Origin: Acidobacteriota bacterium
GTDB lineage: Bacteria > Acidobacteriota > Thermoanaerobaculia > Multivoradales > JAGPDF01
Direction: 5' to 3'
Assembly: GCA_017860005.1 (NCBI GenBank)
Contig: JAFNAE010000008.1
Coordinates: 1 to 34,110 of the forward strand
DNA length: 34,110 bases
Made by a program: the position numbers and the translations under genes. This document shows positions 5,956 through 28,745 of this stretch, one piece after another. Each line of letters starts with the position of its first letter. Position 1 is the stretch's first letter. The notes beneath the pieces are model-generated. The model was not told the origin of the DNA, searched no databases, and saw only the letters and a program-made list of their open reading frames with translations.

Positions 5956-8148
5956 CTAGCGGGGGGCTTCGCTCGCGGTGGCCGGGCCGGCCGATTCGGA
6001 CGTCGTGCGAAGGCGGACCTCGATGCGCCCTTCGGCGAGCGGCTCGCCGACCCGGTCGCCGAACCAGGCCACGTCTTCGAGCACGAGATCGACCAGGACC
6101 CGGTAGGTGCCGGCGGCGGGAGGCGTCAGCGGCACCTCGAGCTCGAGTTGCTCGCCCGGGGCGACGGGCCGCGGCAATGGCACGCGCATCTCCACCGGCC
6201 GGGCGCTGGCGTCGAACGGAAGCCAGCGCACGCCGGCCTGGACCGGCAGGGCGTCGTCGGAGCGCCAGGTCCAGTCGCCTCCGTTGCGCACGCGCAGGCG
6301 GACGCGCGGCGCGGCCTCGAGCGGCACCGGGATCTCCTCCGGCAGGGTCACCGCCTCGACCTCGCGCGCGAAGCCGGTGGGCAGGCGCCGCCGCCCCAGG
6401 TAGCGCAGGCGCGCCGACGCGAATCCCCCGCCCGGCACCTCGAGCGCGAAGCGCACCAATCGCGCCCGCGCCGGACGGCCGTCCGACCACCAGAACGGGT
6501 GCACCCGCCAGGCCGGCGCGAGATCGACCTCCACCGGGCCGCCCGAGCCCGCGCCGTGCGCCGTGAGCGGGAACCGGCGGGTGCGCCGCCAGTCCGAGAC
6601 CACCAGCGTCGCGCGCGGCGCGTCGCAGGTCACCAGCCACGTGGTCGGATCCCCTTCCCAGACGGTCGCCAGCTCGATCTCGGCGGCCGGATCGCCCGCG
6701 GCGAGCTCGAAGCTCCACTCGTCGGCGCGCGCGTAGGGATCGACGAAGCGCACGAAGTCGCCCGACCAGTAACGGTCGCGGCGGCCGTCGATGTTGGAGG
6801 CGCTGGACTCGTAGGGCAGGAGCCGGAACAGGCCGGCGTGGGCGTGGCTCTGGCTGGTCGGGTCGAGCTCCCCGGCGCGCACCACCGAGGCGAGCGCCGA
6901 GGCGCCCGCGATCGCGGCCACCCCCCAGACCGCGGCCAGCGCCCGCCGCGAGGGCAGGCGCGGCAGGGCGAGCAGGAGGCAGGGGTAGGCGGCGAGCAGG
7001 TAGCGATTGCCGACGAACGTCTCGCCGCCGAAGTAGTTGGCGGGCCACCAGACGAGGTAGAAGGCGGCGAGGCCGGCGAAGCCCGCCAGGCCGGCCCATG
7101 CCACCCGATCGCGCGCGCCCAGGGCGAGCGCGCCGAGCAGCAGCGCGGCCGGGAAGTAGGCGATGAGCCCCGAGTGGCGGCCGACGAAGAAGTAGAGCAC
7201 CGCGTAGGCGGTGCGCTCGCCCTGCCAGACCGGGCGCACGTCGAGCATCGAGGTCGCCCAGGCCTCGTCGGTGCCGAAGCGCGCCAGGGCGCGCGCGGCG
7301 TCCTCCCCGGCCGGATAGCCGGTCGCGGCGTTGAACGTCGCGCGCTCGGCCTTGTAGGGGTTGAGCGCACCGGTCGTCGCCCAGGTCAGGGCGAGCACGA
7401 GCAGGTACCCGGCGGCGACCGCGGCGGCCGCCGCCGCGGCGCGCCGCCAGCGCCGGCCGCCGAGCGCCGCGAGCACCGGCACGGCCGCGACCGCCGCGTG
7501 CGGCTCGCGCAGGCCGATCAGCAGGCCGAGCAGGAGCGCACCCGCCAGGGGCGCGTGGCGCGCCGCGAGGAGGCGCGCCACGGCGCCCTGCGCGGGCCCG
7601 CTCGCGCCGCGCTCGGCGGCGAGCGCGAGCGAGAGGCCGGCGAGCGCGAGCGCGACCTGCAGCGTCTCGGCCATCCGCCAGACCAGGTAGGGGACGAGCG
7701 CCGAGGCACAGGCGAAGGTGAGCAACGCCTCGGTGACGCGCGCCCCCGCCGCGACGCGCACGAGCAGGGCGCGCGCGAGCAGCAGCGCCAGGCCCAGGAC
7801 GAGGAGGTTGAACGCGATCAGGCCCGCTTCCCCGGCGATCGCGAGGAAGGGCGCCGCGAGCAGCGGATAGAGGACCGGCTTCGAGTAGTGGACGCCGCGC
7901 GCCGTGCGCTCGAGGATCAGCGCCACGCCGCCGCGCGCCTCCGCCCAGCGGCGGTCCGGCGCCGCGAAGGCGAGGTCCCCGTCGCGCGCCAGGCTGGCCG
8001 CCATCGCCACGTAGGTGGCCTCGTCGCCGCGCAGCTCCGCGAGCGGCAGGCGGTGCGCACGGATCGCCGCGAAGAGGGCGAGCGCGGCCGCCGCCAGCAG
8101 CCAGAAGGGCAGCGTCGAGCTGGCGAAGCGCTGGAACGGGCCGCGCAT
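5956..8148 (-). CDS. GT-C/ArnT-like multi-TM glycosyltransferase-family protein with C-terminal Ig-like domain
   Basis: LRGDEATYVAMAASLARDGDL acidic motif after TM1, many hydrophobic segments, C-terminal GTYRVLVDLVLEDVAWFGDR. Confidence 0.8.
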   Translation of the reverse strand: MRGPFQRFASSTLPFWLLAAAALALFAAIRAHRLPLAELRGDEATYVAMAASLARDGDLAFAAPDRRWAEARGGVALILERTARGVHYSKPVLYPLLAAPFLAIAGEAGLIAFNLLVLGLALLLARALLVRVAAGARVTEALLTFACASALVPYLVWRMAETLQVALALAGLSLALAAERGASGPAQGAVARLLAARHAPLAGALLLGLLIGLREPHAAVAAVPVLAALGGRRWRRAAAAAAAVAAGYLLVLALTWATTGALNPYKAERATFNAATGYPAGEDAARALARFGTDEAWATSMLDVRPVWQGERTAYAVLYFFVGRHSGLIAYFPAALLLGALALGARDRVAWAGLAGFAGLAAFYLVWWPANYFGGETFVGNRYLLAAYPCLLLALPRLPSRRALAAVWGVAAIAGASALASVVRAGELDPTSQSHAHAGLFRLLPYESSASNIDGRRDRYWSGDFVRFVDPYARADEWSFELAAGDPAAEIELATVWEGDPTTWLVTCDAPRATLVVSDWRRTRRFPLTAHGAGSGGPVEVDLAPAWRVHPFWWSDGRPARARLVRFALEVPGGGFASARLRYLGRRRLPTGFAREVEAVTLPEEIPVPLEAAPRVRLRVRNGGDWTWRSDDALPVQAGVRWLPFDASARPVEMRVPLPRPVAPGEQLELEVPLTPPAAGTYRVLVDLVLEDVAWFGDRVGEPLAEGRIEVRLRTTSESAGPATASEAPR

Positions 8149-8164: not shown

Positions 8165-9550
8165 CTAGCGCAGGTAGCCGAGCGACCGCAGCTCTTCTTC
8201 GGTCTCGGCGTCGAGCGTGGTGTCGGCGGCGCCGATCGGCTTCAGGCCCCGGCGCCACTCGCGCAGCAGGTTCTGCATGGCGGCGAGCTCGCGCGGCCGG
8301 CTCTCCGCGAGGTTGGTGCGCTCTCCGGGGTCGCTCTCGAGGTCGTAGAGCTCCCACTTCTTCGACTCCGCCGTGAACACCAGCTTCCACTTCTCGGTGC
8401 GCACCGCGAGCATGCCGTTGGCCTCCCCGGCGACGTACTCGTAGGGCGGCTGCTCGGGTGCGCGGCCGAGCACCCAGGGCAGGAGCGAGGGGGCGCTCAC
8501 GCCCGGCACGGCGGGCTGGCCGACCAGGTCGAACAGCGTGGGCAGCAGCGAGCGCGTCTCGACCAGGGCGTCGATGCTGCCGCCGCGGCTCCTGCTCCAG
8601 GAGGCCGGCAGCTTCCACAGGAACGGCACGCGCAGGAGCTCGTCGTACATGGTGTGGCCGTGCTCGATGCCACCGCGCTCGGCGAGCTCCTCGCCGTGGT
8701 CGGAGGTCAGCACGACCAGGGTGTCGTCCCACACGCCGCGCTCCCGGAGCGCCGCGAACAGGCGCCCGAGCCCGGCGTCGAACGCCAGCAGCTCCTCGGC
8801 GTAGCGCGCGGCGAGCGCCTTGCGGTCCGCCGCCGAGAGCACGACGGCACCGGACCGGATGTCCTCGCGCAGCTTGCGCCAGTTGTCGCAGAAGCGCATC
8901 GCGTCCGGATTGGCGTCGAAGCGGCCGTAGGTCTCGGCGGGCGGGCAGTACGGCCAGTGGATATCGAGGTAGTGGAGGTAGGCGAAGAACGGCTGCGCGG
9001 GAGCCTCGTCCAGCCAGTCCAGGAAGCGCCGGTTGATCTTCTCGACGCCCATCGTGTTGTTGTTGAAGAAGTCGAAGCCCTGGTCGAGGCCGAAGCGCGG
9101 CGAGAGCTGCGCCTGGTAGGCGACCAGCGCCGTACGGTAGCCGGCCGCCTTCATGCCCTCGGCGAGCGTCGTCGCCTGGGGCGAAAGGGCCTGGCCCTGG
9201 ACCGCGCCGCCCTGGGCCACGAAGTCGCCGAGCCCGTGCTCCGCCGGGTAGAGGCCGGTGAGCAGCGAGGGCACGCTCGGCCTCGTCCAGGTCGCCTGGA
9301 CGAAGGCGTTGCGGAAATCGAGGCTCTCGCCGCCGAGCGCGTCGATCGAGGGCGTGGCCGGGATCGACGAGCCGTGGAGCCCGAGGTGGTCCCAGCGCAG
9401 CGCGTCGACCAGCACGACCAGGATCCCGCGCGGCGGCTCGGGCCGGCTCGGGGCGCAGCCCGCCGCCGCCAGCAGGGCGAGGACGAGCGCGAAGGGGCGG
9501 GCGAGTCGCACGGTGTCGGGAGGTACGGGGCGGCCCGCGGGAGCGGGCAA
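8165..9550 (-). CDS. Sulfatase-like (alkaline phosphatase superfamily) lipoprotein; start TTG 9550 or GTG 9511
   Basis: ILVVLVDALRWDHLGLHGSSIPATPSIDAL, VVLTSDHGEELAERGGIEHGHTMYDELLRVPFLWKLP; lipobox LAAAGC after RLARPFALVLAL. Confidence 0.85.
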   Translation of the reverse strand: MPAPAGRPVPPDTVRLARPFALVLALLAAAGCAPSRPEPPRGILVVLVDALRWDHLGLHGSSIPATPSIDALGGESLDFRNAFVQATWTRPSVPSLLTGLYPAEHGLGDFVAQGGAVQGQALSPQATTLAEGMKAAGYRTALVAYQAQLSPRFGLDQGFDFFNNNTMGVEKINRRFLDWLDEAPAQPFFAYLHYLDIHWPYCPPAETYGRFDANPDAMRFCDNWRKLREDIRSGAVVLSAADRKALAARYAEELLAFDAGLGRLFAALRERGVWDDTLVVLTSDHGEELAERGGIEHGHTMYDELLRVPFLWKLPASWSRSRGGSIDALVETRSLLPTLFDLVGQPAVPGVSAPSLLPWVLGRAPEQPPYEYVAGEANGMLAVRTEKWKLVFTAESKKWELYDLESDPGERTNLAESRPRELAAMQNLLREWRRGLKPIGAADTTLDAETEEELRSLGYLR

Positions 9551-9561
9551 AACGCCGGTGG

Positions 9562-9567
9562 AGACTA
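9562..9567 (-). promoter_or_regulatory. Candidate -10 element TAGTCT, 11 nt before TTG 9550
   Basis: minus strand gggaTAGTCT-ccaccggcgtt-TTG. Confidence 0.5.
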
Positions 9568-9609
9568 TCCCAGCCCCGGTCCGCGCCCAAGCGCGACCGC
9601 CCCCCGCGA

Positions 9610-9615
9610 TAGACT
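9610..9615 (+). promoter_or_regulatory. Candidate -10 element TAGACT, 10 nt before ATG 9626
   Basis: gcgaTAGACT-gcgccgacgc-ATG. Confidence 0.55.
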
Positions 9616-9625
9616 GCGCCGACGC

Positions 9626-11893
9626 ATGTCGCGCCCCTCCCGGTACGTCTTCCTCGCGCTCGCGCTCCTGCTCGTCGTCTTCCCGGCGACGATCGCGAAG
9701 CCCGGGCAGCCGATGAACCTCAAGTCCGACGAGCCCGCCTACTACCTGATGGCGCTCTCGCTCGCCCACGACCGCGACCTCGTCTGCGACGTGGGTGACA
9801 TCCGGCGCCTGGCAGTCGAGTTCCCCTACAACCTCGTCAACAACCTGATCCTGATGTCGGCCGACGGCTGGCAGACCGTCTACTTCGGCAAGCCCTGGCT
9901 GATCTCCCTGATCGCCGCTCCCGCCACGGCCCTGTTCGGCGCCGGCGGGTTCTTCGCCACCAACATGGCGCTGCTGCTCGCCGCCGTCTGGATGGGGGCG
10001 CTCTACCTGCGCCGCCACAACCCGGAGTGGCTCGCGCTGCTCTTCTCGGCCGGCTTCTTCCTGCTCTCCAACGCGTTCCCCTACGTGTTCTGGATGCACA
10101 CCGAGGTGCTGTGCATCACCGGCGTGACCGCCTGCCTCTATCTCGCCTTCACCGAGGCTCCGGTGGGGCCGGCGCTCACCCGCCTGGGCCGTGCCTGGGA
10201 GCGAGTCTGGAACGACGGTACGCGCCCGGCCTTCTCGGCCGCGGCGCTGGTCGCCGCGGCCTACAACAAGCCGATCCTCGCCCTGCTCGGGCTGCCGGCG
10301 CTGGTGGCCGTGGCGGGCCGCGGCGGGCGGCGGCGCGCCCTGTCCTGGCTCGCCGGCGCCGCCGTCGGCGGGCTCGCCCTGTGCGGAACCTCGCTCGCTC
10401 TCTCCCCCACCGCGTCGGCCTACCTCGGCGTCGAGCGGCAGGGCGTGCGGGTGGAGCGCTTCGACCAGATGCCGGAGCTGCCCGAGCCGACGCCGCCCGA
10501 TCCGATGTCCGGTCCGCGCAACGCCTGGAACTGGATCTTCCGCGCGCCCGAGATCGACGCGCGGCTGCTCGACAACTCGCGCTACTTCCTGATCGGCCGT
10601 CACACCGGCCTCTTCCTCTACGCGCCGTTCACCCTCCTCGCGCTCGGCCTGTTCCTCGCCTACGAGCGGCGCTCGGGTCTGCGCTGGCTGCTGCTCGCCT
10701 GCCTCGGCGGCGTGGCGCTGTTCTTCCTCACCCTGATCCCATTCAACTGGCACGGCGGCGGCGGCTTCGTCGGCAACCGCTACTTCGTCAACGCGCTGCC
10801 CGGTTTCCTCTTCCTGGTCACGCGCATCGCCCCCGCCTGGCTGCCGGTGGCCGGCTTCGCGCTGGGCGGGCTGTTCGTAGGTCCGCTCGTGTTCTCGCCC
10901 TACGGCGCCATCGTGCCCAGCCCGACGCTCCAGGCGCACACCCGCAACGCGCCCTTCCAGCTCTTCCCGCTCGAGACCTCGATCCAGGGCAACATCCCCG
11001 GCTACCGCGGCTACGGCGGCACCGCGGGCGCGTTCTTCTTCGGCCGCAGCGACCTCTTCCGGCCGGTGGGCGACGCGCTCTGGGTGGTCGGTGGCAAGAA
11101 GGTCGCGATCACCCTGCGCACGCTCGAGCCCCTGCGGCGGCCGGTGTTCCAGGTCGAGACCGTGACCGCGCCGAACCGTGTGCGGATCGCCCTCGACGGC
11201 GCCGCCAAGGAGCCGCACTTCCAGAGCCTCGAGCCGGGGGCGAACGTCACGCGCGTCGCGCTCGAGCCGCGCGAGCGCGCGCCGCGGATCGACTGGGAGG
11301 GCAACCGCTCCTGGGTCTACGAGCTGACCGTCAGGGCCTCGAGCCAGGCCTGGCACACCGAGGTCGTCTCCACCCGCAACCGGCGCGCGAGCCGCGAGGC
11401 CGCCGCCGGGGAGCCCGACGGCCCGGGCGCCCGTGTCGTACCGGCCTGGGAGCAGGAAGAGCTCGAGATGCTGGTCGGCGCCATGGTGACCTACCTGGGC
11501 GAGGAGGACGAGCTCGCCACCGACGTCTTCTCGGTCGAGTGGCTCGAGGCGCAGGTGCCCGCGACGCTCGGTCCGGGGGCCACGGTGCAGTTCCACGGCC
11601 GCGTGCGCAACACGAGCAGCGCGGTCTGGCGCGCGCGCGGCGGCAGCCGCGTCGCCCTCGCCTATCACTGGCTGGCGCCCGACGGCGCGCGGCTGGTCTG
11701 GGACGGCCTGCGCACGCTGCTGCCGGGCGACCTGCCGCCGGGCGGCGTCGCCGAGGTGAGCCTCGAGGTCGAGGCGCCCCGCCGGCCGGGCCGGTACGTG
11801 CTCGAGCTCGACCCCGTGCGCGAGCAGGTGGCCTGGTTCTCCGACCGGCGCCCCGGCAACACGCTGCGGCGCGACGTCGAGGTCGTGCCCTAG
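9626..11893 (+). CDS. GT-C-like multi-TM glycosyltransferase-family protein with C-terminal Ig-like domain; related in architecture to 5956..8148
   Basis: MSRPSRYVFLALALLLVVFPATIAKPGQPMNLKSDEPAYYLMALSLAHDRDL; C-term PGRYVLELDPVREQVAWFSDR. Confidence 0.8.
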   Translation: MSRPSRYVFLALALLLVVFPATIAKPGQPMNLKSDEPAYYLMALSLAHDRDLVCDVGDIRRLAVEFPYNLVNNLILMSADGWQTVYFGKPWLISLIAAPATALFGAGGFFATNMALLLAAVWMGALYLRRHNPEWLALLFSAGFFLLSNAFPYVFWMHTEVLCITGVTACLYLAFTEAPVGPALTRLGRAWERVWNDGTRPAFSAAALVAAAYNKPILALLGLPALVAVAGRGGRRRALSWLAGAAVGGLALCGTSLALSPTASAYLGVERQGVRVERFDQMPELPEPTPPDPMSGPRNAWNWIFRAPEIDARLLDNSRYFLIGRHTGLFLYAPFTLLALGLFLAYERRSGLRWLLLACLGGVALFFLTLIPFNWHGGGGFVGNRYFVNALPGFLFLVTRIAPAWLPVAGFALGGLFVGPLVFSPYGAIVPSPTLQAHTRNAPFQLFPLETSIQGNIPGYRGYGGTAGAFFFGRSDLFRPVGDALWVVGGKKVAITLRTLEPLRRPVFQVETVTAPNRVRIALDGAAKEPHFQSLEPGANVTRVALEPRERAPRIDWEGNRSWVYELTVRASSQAWHTEVVSTRNRRASREAAAGEPDGPGARVVPAWEQEELEMLVGAMVTYLGEEDELATDVFSVEWLEAQVPATLGPGATVQFHGRVRNTSSAVWRARGGSRVALAYHWLAPDGARLVWDGLRTLLPGDLPPGGVAEVSLEVEAPRRPGRYVLELDPVREQVAWFSDRRPGNTLRRDVEVVP

Positions 11894-14312: not shown

Positions 14313-15212
14313 TCAGAGGCTCCCGGTCGCGCGCGCCGCACGGTACCAGGCGATGGTGCGCGCCAGACCCTCGTCGAGATCGACTTCGGGGCGCCAGCCC
14401 GCGCGCTCGAGGGTCGCCGCGGGTCGGGCTCGCCGCACCGTCTCCAGCGGCCGGTCCGGCAACGCCCCGACCTCGGGTCCTTCGACGCCCGTGGCGCGGC
14501 AGATCCTCTCGACCACCGCGCGCACCGTCACCAGCTCGCCGCTGCCCAGGTCGAACGTCCCGCCCTCGACGCCCGTCGCCCGCGCCAGCGCGAGCAGGCC
14601 CCCCGCCACGTCCTCGGCGTAGATCCAGTCGACCTGGCGCGTGCCCGAGGAGATCGGCGGCCGCCGGCCCTCGAGCGCGGCGAGGATCGAGGCCGGCACC
14701 ACCTTGGCGAGATCGCGTTGCGCCGGCCCGTAGGCCATGAACACCCGCGCCGTGACCACGGGCGTCTCGTAGACAGCACGGAAGAAGCGCGCGTAGAGGC
14801 TCGACGCGCCCTTGGCCGCGGCGTAGGGCGAGGCCGGCGCCTCGCCCGGCTCCGGCTCCTCCATCGACCCCGCGAGCACGACGCGACGGCAGCCAACGCG
14901 CGTCGCGGCGGCGAGCACGTGCACGGCGGCGGCGAGATTGCTGCGGAAGGTGGGCACCACGAGCTCGAGCTCGCGGCGCCCGGTGACCAGGCTGGCGAGG
15001 TGAAAGACGACCTCGGGACGCTCCTCGTCGAGCGCGCTCTCGACCGCGTCGAGACGCTCGAGATCGACCGCGCGCCAGCGCGCTCCCGGCGTCTCCGCGC
15101 GCGGCCGCCGCGAGAGGGCGACCGTCTCCGCCCCCTCCCGCGCCAGGGCGGCGAGCAGGTGGTGACCGAGGAAGCCCGAGGCTCCGGTGACGAGGCAGCG
15201 AATTCCCTGCAA
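14313..15212 (-). CDS. NAD-dependent epimerase/dehydratase (extended SDR); TTG start
   Basis: CLVTGASGFLGHHLLAAL Rossmann motif, SPYAAAKGASSLYARFF YxxxK, GGTFDLGSGELVTVRAVVERI. Confidence 0.85.
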   Translation of the reverse strand: MQGIRCLVTGASGFLGHHLLAALAREGAETVALSRRPRAETPGARWRAVDLERLDAVESALDEERPEVVFHLASLVTGRRELELVVPTFRSNLAAAVHVLAAATRVGCRRVVLAGSMEEPEPGEAPASPYAAAKGASSLYARFFRAVYETPVVTARVFMAYGPAQRDLAKVVPASILAALEGRRPPISSGTRQVDWIYAEDVAGGLLALARATGVEGGTFDLGSGELVTVRAVVERICRATGVEGPEVGALPDRPLETVRRARPAATLERAGWRPEVDLDEGLARTIAWYRAARATGSL

Positions 15213-15253: not shown

Positions 15254-16153
15254 CTAGTAGCGGCCCGCGAGCCGCGGCCGGGGCCCGGCCGCGAGCCGTC
15301 CCAGGCGGCGGCGCCAGCGCTTGATCAGGCGCGCCGCCGCCTCGAGCGGCGCCGGCAGGGAGCCCGCCGCAGGCGGCGGCCCGGCGCTGCGCGCCGGGGC
15401 GGGCGCCGGCGGCCGCGAGCAGCCCTGGAGCGGCGTCCGGTCGGTGCTCGCGCCGGGCAGCTTGGTCGCCACCACCCAGGTCGCCGCGGGCCGGCTCCCG
15501 AAGCCTCCGATGCCGAGCGTGTCGAGCGCGCCCGGCGCGTAGTCCCAGGCGAGCCAGAGCGGCGGCTCGAAGCGGCCGCGCCACCAGAGCGGCTCGAACT
15601 CGCAGAAGCGCAGCGTCTCGACGCGCCAGCCGTTGGCGGCGTAGAAGTCGGCGAACAGCTGCGGCGAGTGCATGTAGAGCCCGACGTCGACGTGATTGGT
15701 CGACGGCACGTAGTGGATCGCCCGCCCGCCCTCGCGCACGGCGAGGCCGAGGTTGCGGAACGCCGCGCGCTGGTCGAAGACGTGGATCAGCGTACCGGTG
15801 TCGAAGACGACGTCGAAGCGGCCGGCGAGCCCGCTCGGCAGCGGCTGGTTGAGGTCGTGGACGTGGGTGGGCGCCTCGTCGGCGAGCAGGTCGAGGCTCT
15901 CGACCCGCTCGAAGCCCAGCGCGCCGAAGAAGGCGCGGTCCGAGAGGCACCCCCGGGCGGCGAGGGCGGGATCGTGCGAGAGCTCCTCCGGCGCGCCCAC
16001 GGCGAGCCGGAAGCCGTCGCGCCGCGCCCAGTGACCGAGCTCCTCGCGCGTCAGGTAGACGTAGCAACGGCCGAGCTCGAGCACCGACCCGGCGAAGGGA
16101 CGACGCCTGCCCTCCTCGAACAGGAGGCGCGCGACCGGACGCGGGATTCCCAC
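15254..16153 (-). CDS. SAM-dependent methyltransferase-like protein (paralog of 13363..14310); GTG start
   Basis: MGIPRPVARLLFEEGRRRPFAGSVLELGRCYVYLTREEL...ALGFERVESLDLLADEAPTHVHDLNQPLPSGLAGRFDVVFDTGTLIHVFD. Confidence 0.75.
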   Translation of the reverse strand: MGIPRPVARLLFEEGRRRPFAGSVLELGRCYVYLTREELGHWARRDGFRLAVGAPEELSHDPALAARGCLSDRAFFGALGFERVESLDLLADEAPTHVHDLNQPLPSGLAGRFDVVFDTGTLIHVFDQRAAFRNLGLAVREGGRAIHYVPSTNHVDVGLYMHSPQLFADFYAANGWRVETLRFCEFEPLWWRGRFEPPLWLAWDYAPGALDTLGIGGFGSRPAATWVVATKLPGASTDRTPLQGCSRPPAPAPARSAGPPPAAGSLPAPLEAAARLIKRWRRRLGRLAAGPRPRLAGRY

Positions 16154-16163
16154 CCTGCCGGGG

Positions 16164-16169
16164 AGCCTA
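16164..16169 (-). promoter_or_regulatory. Candidate -10 element TAGGCT, 10 nt before GTG 16153
   Basis: minus strand gggaTAGGCT-ccccggcagg-GTG. Confidence 0.5.
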
Positions 16170-16190
16170 TCCCACGCTCCTTCAGCATGA

Positions 16191-16196
16191 TAGCGT
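16191..16196 (+). promoter_or_regulatory. Candidate extended -10 element TGaTAGCGT, 12 nt before ATG 16209
   Basis: catgaTAGCGT-cgctcgcgaccc-ATG. Confidence 0.45.
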
Positions 16197-16208
16197 CGCT
16201 CGCGACCC

Positions 16209-17417
16209 ATGCGGCTCCGCAGCCTCCCTGGCCGCGCCGCGCGCACGTTCGAGCGCGAGCTCCGCAAGCTGCGCAGGATCGACGAGAAGGTGGTCCGGGT
16301 GCCCGCCGCCGTCGATCCGCCGCGCGGGCGGGCGATCCTCTCGTACATCGTCGATCCCTTCCTGCTCCCGCCCGGTGCTCCCGTCCCGCACAGCCACACC
16401 CACGACTGGGAGTCGCTGACCATGGGGCGCACGCTCGCCGCGCTCGGCTTCGAGCTCGACGTGGTGCACTGGACGAACCGCACGTTCGAGCCGCGCGGCG
16501 ACTACGACCTGCTGGTCGACGTGCGCCTGCTGCTCGAGCGGCTCGCGCCCCGGCTCGGCCCGGGCTGCCTCAAGGTGATGCACGCCGAGACCGCCCACCC
16601 GTCCTTCTACAACCCCGCGCAGCGCGCCCGCCTCGACGCGCTCGCGGCGCGCCGTGGCATCCGCCTCGCCCCGTTCAAGCTCCTCGACGACAATCGGGCC
16701 ATCGAGCACGCCGACGCCGCGACCATCCTCGGCAACGAGGCCACGCAGGCGACTTACCGCTTCGCGGGCAAGCCGCTCTACCCGGTGCCGATCTCCCAGC
16801 CCGTGCTCTATCCCTTCCCGGAGGAGAAGGACTTCGCGGCCGCGCGCAGGCGCTTCCTCTGGTTCGGCAGCGGCGGCATGGTGCACAAGGGGCTCGACCT
16901 CGTGCTCGAGGCGTTCTCGGGGATGCCCGAGCTGGAGCTCGCGGTGGCCGGTCCGGTCGAGCGCGAGCGCGACTTCGAGCGCGCCTTCGCGCGCGAGCTC
17001 TACCGGACCCCGAACATCCGCGCCCTGGGCTGGGTCGACGTCGCCGGGCCCGCCTTCACCGCGCTCGCCGGGCGCACGCTCGGCCTCGTCTACCCCTCCT
17101 GCTCGGAGGGCCAGAACGGCGGCACCGTCTCCTGCATGCACGCCGCCCTGATCCCGCTCGTCACGCGCGAGGTCGGCGTGGACGTCGCGCCCGGGTGCGG
17201 CGTCGTGCTGGGCGAGCCCACGGTCGAGGGCATCCGCGCCGCGGTGCGCGCGCTCGCCGCGCGTCCGCCGGCGGAGCTCGCGCGCATGGCGCGCAGCGCC
17301 TGGAGCCACGCCCGGGAGCACCACACTCGCGAGCGCTTCGCGAGCGTCTACCGCCAGCGCGTGCTGGAGATCGTCGGGCGCTTCCGGCCCGCGCTGCGCT
17401 CCCGCCTGCTCGCCTGA
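16209..17417 (+). CDS. Glycosyltransferase family 4-like protein
   Basis: FLWFGSGGMVHKGLDLVLEAFSGMPELELAVAGP donor-site region and VYPSCSEGQNGGTVSCMHAALIPLVTREVGVD. Confidence 0.8.
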   Translation: MRLRSLPGRAARTFERELRKLRRIDEKVVRVPAAVDPPRGRAILSYIVDPFLLPPGAPVPHSHTHDWESLTMGRTLAALGFELDVVHWTNRTFEPRGDYDLLVDVRLLLERLAPRLGPGCLKVMHAETAHPSFYNPAQRARLDALAARRGIRLAPFKLLDDNRAIEHADAATILGNEATQATYRFAGKPLYPVPISQPVLYPFPEEKDFAAARRRFLWFGSGGMVHKGLDLVLEAFSGMPELELAVAGPVERERDFERAFARELYRTPNIRALGWVDVAGPAFTALAGRTLGLVYPSCSEGQNGGTVSCMHAALIPLVTREVGVDVAPGCGVVLGEPTVEGIRAAVRALAARPPAELARMARSAWSHAREHHTRERFASVYRQRVLEIVGRFRPALRSRLLA

Positions 17418-28482: not shown

Positions 28483-28564
28483 GCGCTCCGTCTCCCGCGG
28501 CAGCAGCGAGGAGAGGGCGAGGAGAGGGACACCGGAACGGGCGCCCCCCGAGTGGCCGTGCGAG

Positions 28565-28745
28565 CGTTGCGTTTAGAACCTGAAACGCGTCAGGTGGGTG
28601 TCCTCACGGCGGGCCTTCAGCGTCCCGGTCCAGGCCGGGCAGGCACGGGCGCGCAGGATTCGGACTCCCGGCATACGTATGTTGGTTCTACGGTGCGTCG
28701 GCTCATCACGTGCCACTCAGGGGGTTCCCTGAATCTTCGAGTCTC
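28565..28745 (-). ncRNA. ssrS: Candidate 6S RNA (ssrS) between zapA and rny; ends approximate
   Basis: Non-coding spacer of about 285 nt directly downstream of zapA. Minus strand reads ...CCCCCTGAGTGGCACGTGATGAGCCG...CCGGGAGTCCGAATCC...GAGGACACCCACCTGACGCGTTTCAGGTTCTAAACGCAACG, resembling 6S 3' segments such as E. coli GACACATTCACCTTGAACC; zapA-adjacent location is classical for 6S. Confidence 0.7.

Follow-up and report, generated by a model that had tools for sequence, protein, structure and literature searches.

How are two divergent genes expressed when their start codons, at 9511 on the minus strand and 9626 on the plus strand, stand back to back across a gap of 114 bp, and does each message begin directly behind its promoter? 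The locus lies in a window of 34,110 nt, the whole stretch of DNA that was analysed, which is contig 122 of a 3.28-Mb Acidobacteriota MAG of 319 contigs with a GC content of about 72% (sampled part). A preliminary description had proposed a divergent pair of leaderless promoters, with the start of the minus-strand gene moved from GTG 9511 to TTG 9550. We consider it likely that the gap instead holds two back-to-back sigma-70-type promoters, of which the plus-strand one is near-leaderless and the minus-strand one yields a leader of about 44 nt ending at GTG 9511.

The divergent gap and its neighbours

The sulfatase-like gene (Table 1) is flanked by two paralogous GT-C-like membrane proteins, encoded at 5956-8148 (-) and 9626-11893 (+). 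The latter shows a weak NCBIfam match to the LA_3751/LA_3752 family of putative glycosyltransferases (E 2.5e-5), has homologues in 39 of 40 relatives, and its nearest named relatives are found in Acidobacteriota MAGs. The window also encodes a 6S RNA at 28541-28726 on the minus strand (RF00013, 69.5 bits); a 16S gene, sought for its anti-Shine-Dalgarno (SD) sequence, was not found in the MAG.

Table 1. Coordinates of genes and proposed promoter features at the divergent locus
Feature	Position	Strand	Basis or remark
Sulfatase-like lipoprotein gene	8165..9511	-	Gene call; Pfam Sulfatase PF00884, E 1.8e-44
Predicted leader, about 44 nt, no SD	9512..9555	-	Predicted transcription start (about 9555) to GTG 9511
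TTG, earlier proposed as leaderless start	9548..9550	-	Unsupported: 11 nt not enriched; no equivalent in G002 or G003
GATAGTCT	9562..9569	-	-10 hexamer TAGTCT at 9567-9562
TTGGGC, -35-like hexamer	9585..9590	-	17 bp upstream of TAGTCT; overlaps the expected plus-strand -35 place
GATAGACT	9608..9615	+	-10 hexamer TAGACT at 9610-9615; G two bases upstream (position -14)
Predicted transcription start region	9622..9626	+	Sigma-70 geometry and sharp 6-10 nt enrichment; leader 0-4 nt
Membrane GT-C-like glycosyltransferase gene, 755 aa, ATG start	9626..11893	+	Gene call

On the plus strand TAGACT precedes ATG 9626 by 10 nt, and on the minus strand TAGTCT precedes TTG 9550, a codon sharing the reading frame of GTG 9511, by 11 nt. 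Inspection of the upstream sequences revealed no SD-like purine run ahead of either start (for ATG 9626 this sequence is gcgccgacgcATG), so that motifs, strands, spacings, reading frames and the lack of an SD all agree with what had been described. GTG 9511 has no SD either. The two hexamers lie 42 bp apart, and the minus-strand -35-like hexamer overlaps the plus-strand -35 region (about 9587-9592), where no -35-like hexamer is present at 17 bp from TAGACT. A DNA search with the 101-bp region returned no true orthologue, because only the motifs are conserved.

Both hexamers fall within the pattern GATAGNCT, which the window contains four times, where dinucleotide shuffles predict 0.67; all four sites stand 9-11 nt ahead of an in-frame start (9550, 9626, 15212 and 16153). 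A second divergent pair is located at 16153-16209, with GATAGGCT on the minus strand 10 nt before GTG 16153 and GATAGCGT on the plus strand (16189-16196) 12 nt before ATG 16209.

Start codons behind a -10 element across the genome

In order to place these motifs in their genomic context, about 1.38 Mb of sequence was sampled, roughly 42% of the fragmented MAG, in which gene starts were assigned by a home-made gene finder. TANNNT is found 6-10 nt before the start of 117 of 634 operon-first genes (18.5%), while dinucleotide shuffles give 5.9 ± 2.4 with a maximum of 16; the enrichment near starts that had been anticipated is thus borne out. Resolved by distance, 34, 23, 19, 23 and 18 of these 634 genes carry the hexamer at 6, 7, 8, 9 and 10 nt, against a background of 3.7 per position, and at 11 nt the enrichment is gone (6 observed against 3.7, p 0.17). 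TANNNT is the most enriched among all 64 XYnnnZ classes. It precedes just 3.6% of the tightly packed downstream genes, and an SD is present in 6% of the TANNNT operon-first genes vs 46% of the others. As part of the sample had been picked for GATAGNCT, the count was redone on contigs lacking any such site, where TANNNT is retained in 64 of 349 genes (18.3%) and the anti-correlation with the SD is seen again (Fisher p = 7e-8).

The start codons themselves point the same way: in-frame ATG is enriched 5.2-fold and GTG 3.3-fold at 6-11 nt after TANNNT, and CTG is depleted. The genomic consensus reads GnTAGnnT, with G at position -14 in 70% and G as third base of the hexamer in 60% of cases; the leaderless promoters show a slight rise of TTG at 17-18 bp (4 and 4 of 117, with 0-1 elsewhere). 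Over the whole genome GATAGNCT occurs at 38 sites, compared with 80 for the reversed pattern. None of these 38 lies on the sense strand within a predicted gene, and about half stand 4-11 nt ahead of an in-frame start. TANNNT, including its form GATAGNCT, is a -10 element, and this genome does use leaderless starts placed next to it. Roughly every fifth operon-first gene in the lineage, a little-studied branch of the Acidobacteriota, appears to lack a leader, and gene prediction based on the SD will therefore misplace many starts.

Two promoters with different leaders

The ATG at 9626 is strongly supported by sequence comparison as a leaderless or near-leaderless start that is conserved across the order. 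Among 20 orthologues sampled at the levels of genus, family and order, 18 have TANNNT, mostly as TAGACT, 6-11 nt ahead of the ATG or GTG that opens the protein. The script itself counted 19 of 20; one case, G038 with a TTG at +18, was left out as a probable error, because 12 nt separate its TAGACT from an ATG. Flanking sequence, spacing and the choice between ATG and GTG differ among the orthologues, and what is kept is the hexamer and its nearness to the start. The next-best class, ATnnnC, reaches 10 of 20 and overlaps the TANNNT motif, and the class after it reaches 7. The 10-nt spacing at this locus is within the enriched range (18 observed, 3.7 expected), and the leaderless reading proposed for this side is supported. 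Transcription would begin 0-4 nt before ATG 9626, the outermost predicted position, 9622, lying 7 nt beyond the final T of the -10, and the GT-C-like protein would be made from an mRNA with no SD and little or no leader.

For the minus strand, comparison with two congeners, G002 and G003, suggests that the promoter is real and that its mRNA is probably leadered. (A MAFFT alignment of the three congeners misplaced the motifs and was left out of the comparison.) GATAGGCT occurs at the corresponding place in both. In G003 it precedes the ATG of the sulfatase orthologue by 74 nt and in G002, whose minus-strand promoter is followed immediately by a GT-C paralogue with no sulfatase gene between, it precedes the ATG of that paralogue by 45 nt; neither genome offers a nearer in-frame ATG, GTG or TTG. 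GTG 9511, at 50 nt from the minus-strand -10, is in line with these distances, and a start there gives the protein a standard lipoprotein signal peptide, (M)RLARPFALVLALLAAAGC. A -35-like TTGnnn at 17 bp accompanies the minus-strand -10 in G000 and in G003 (TTGTTC), not in G002, this being a comparison of three genomes only. Because of the congener spacings, the signal peptide and the lack of enrichment at 11 nt, we keep GTG 9511 as most probably the start and read the promoter as leadered. With TTGGGC at 17 bp, transcription would begin near 9555 and the message, with a predicted leader of about 44 nt, would most probably be read from GTG 9511.

That both promoters are leaderless, with the sulfatase-like protein beginning at TTG 9550 and gaining 13 residues, is unlikely. 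The codon is in frame and 11 nt past a real -10, in-frame TTG is in slight excess 6-11 nt after TANNNT (10 vs about 4.5), and a leaderless TTG is plausible for an epimerase gene at 15212 (see below). Yet a spacing of 11 nt falls outside the enriched range of 6-10 nt, the conserved -10 stands 74 nt (G003) and 45 nt (G002) before the start with no closer candidate in frame, the added stretch would put a proline-rich segment ahead of an otherwise normal lipoprotein signal peptide, and among 40 relatives bulk enrichment of TTG after GATAGNCT is absent. The re-annotation to TTG 9550 is accordingly not supported, as neither its start nor its spacing is kept in G002 and G003. From the divergent leaderless pair of the preliminary description we retain both promoters and the leaderless plus side; a leaderless minus side, where the same -10 is probably used in a leadered way, is not supported. 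Proximity of a -10 to an in-frame start codon is thus insufficient for a leaderless call, as TTG 9550 illustrates, and it is the comparison of orthologues that distinguishes leaderless from leadered use of one -10.

On the preferred reading, a leaderless or near-leaderless plus side and a leadered minus side, the gap would carry two divergent promoters of the ordinary -10 class of this genome (GnTAGnnT, with a weak or absent -35). Since their -35 regions overlap, the two would probably not be occupied by RNA polymerase simultaneously. It is unlikely, and somewhat less probable than a TTG start, that the arrangement forms a coupled regulatory device, built on a single operator lying between the two promoters or on a mutual exclusion balancing the two genes. 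The overlap of the -35 regions and the retention of both -10s in G002 and G003 would suit such a device, but the interior spacing between the -10s varies (42 bp here; congeners 55 and 66 bp) and, of 145 divergent gaps, 16 hold a divergent leaderless pair, where the binned independence expectation is about 19. As the spacing is not conserved and such pairs are no commoner than independence predicts, no special coupling is claimed; a shared operator is not supported, no inverted repeat being reported between the two -10s. Elsewhere, at L001 10409-10539, the divergent gap of two TANNNT-led genes contains a long inverted repeat (CCGGTGTCAGAGCACCGGTTTC / GAAACCGGTGCTCTGACACCGG). It is very improbable that the motifs arose by chance in a GC-rich spacer while the true promoters lie elsewhere: although a consensus scan detected no TTGACA/TATAAT-type promoter, with a partial -35 on the minus strand and none on the plus strand, the genome-wide position effect and the conservation in orthologues with diverged flanks speak against this view.

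A TTG directly behind a -10 deserves separate consideration at the NAD-dependent epimerase/dehydratase-like gene at 14313-15212 on the minus strand (region to 15229), where TTG 15212 follows TAGACT by 9 nt and the Rossmann motif begins a few residues later. At the aligned start G004 and G006, orthologues from another genus, have TTG, 9 and 6 nt downstream of TAGGAT, and G002, G005 and G007 have ATG; all have TANNNT 6-9 nt upstream. UUG may thus be a natural leaderless start, and we lean towards the view that leaderless mRNAs of this Acidobacteriota family can begin with it. In 40 relatives, TTG lies 6-9 nt after GATAGNCT in 264 matches, compared with 256 at 16-19 nt, and this lack of excess implies that leaderless TTG is not a bulk phenomenon. 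Another candidate, at L122 6864-8150 (+), has its TTG 9 nt after TAGACT and would encode a 428-aa protein beginning LSLHVALVGP.

Relation to known leaderless systems

The plus-strand promoter belongs to an already known kind. TA-led (TANNNT) leaderless genes were predicted in Acidobacteria in three of three genomes, at a mean frequency of 13.3% (9.7-19.4) (Zheng et al., 2011; PMC3160421), and our case resembles them in its high-GC genome, in the absence of an SD and in a TANNNT that precedes the start by about 10-12 bp. The frequency found here is about 12% of all sampled genes and about 18% of operon-first genes. What sets it apart from that study is a preference for TAG in the hexamer together with G at -14 (GnTAGnnT), and a check by conservation among orthologues, not in one genome alone. 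An experimental map of transcription starts in Acidobacteriota with leaderless genes was not found in the literature searched.

In Deinococcus-Thermus, -10 motifs adjoin about 30% of ORFs, and the arrangement has been tested experimentally in Deinococcus (PMC12340547). The likeness to Deinococcus that the preliminary description had drawn is apt as a mechanism, since there too a TANNNT immediately ahead of the ORF, at a constrained distance, acts as the promoter of a leaderless mRNA; the host, however, is an acidobacterium, a group in which the TANNNT signal had already been reported (PMC3160421). The two cases thus differ in phylum, in frequency (about 12% against about 30%) and in that the arrangement is inferred here and tested there. 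Leaderless transcripts of mycobacteria likewise have their start codon at or a few nucleotides from the 5' end and no SD, but are reported to require ATG or GTG at that end (PMC4633059), whereas the Acidobacteriota genome described here holds one conserved candidate for a leaderless TTG, at 15212.
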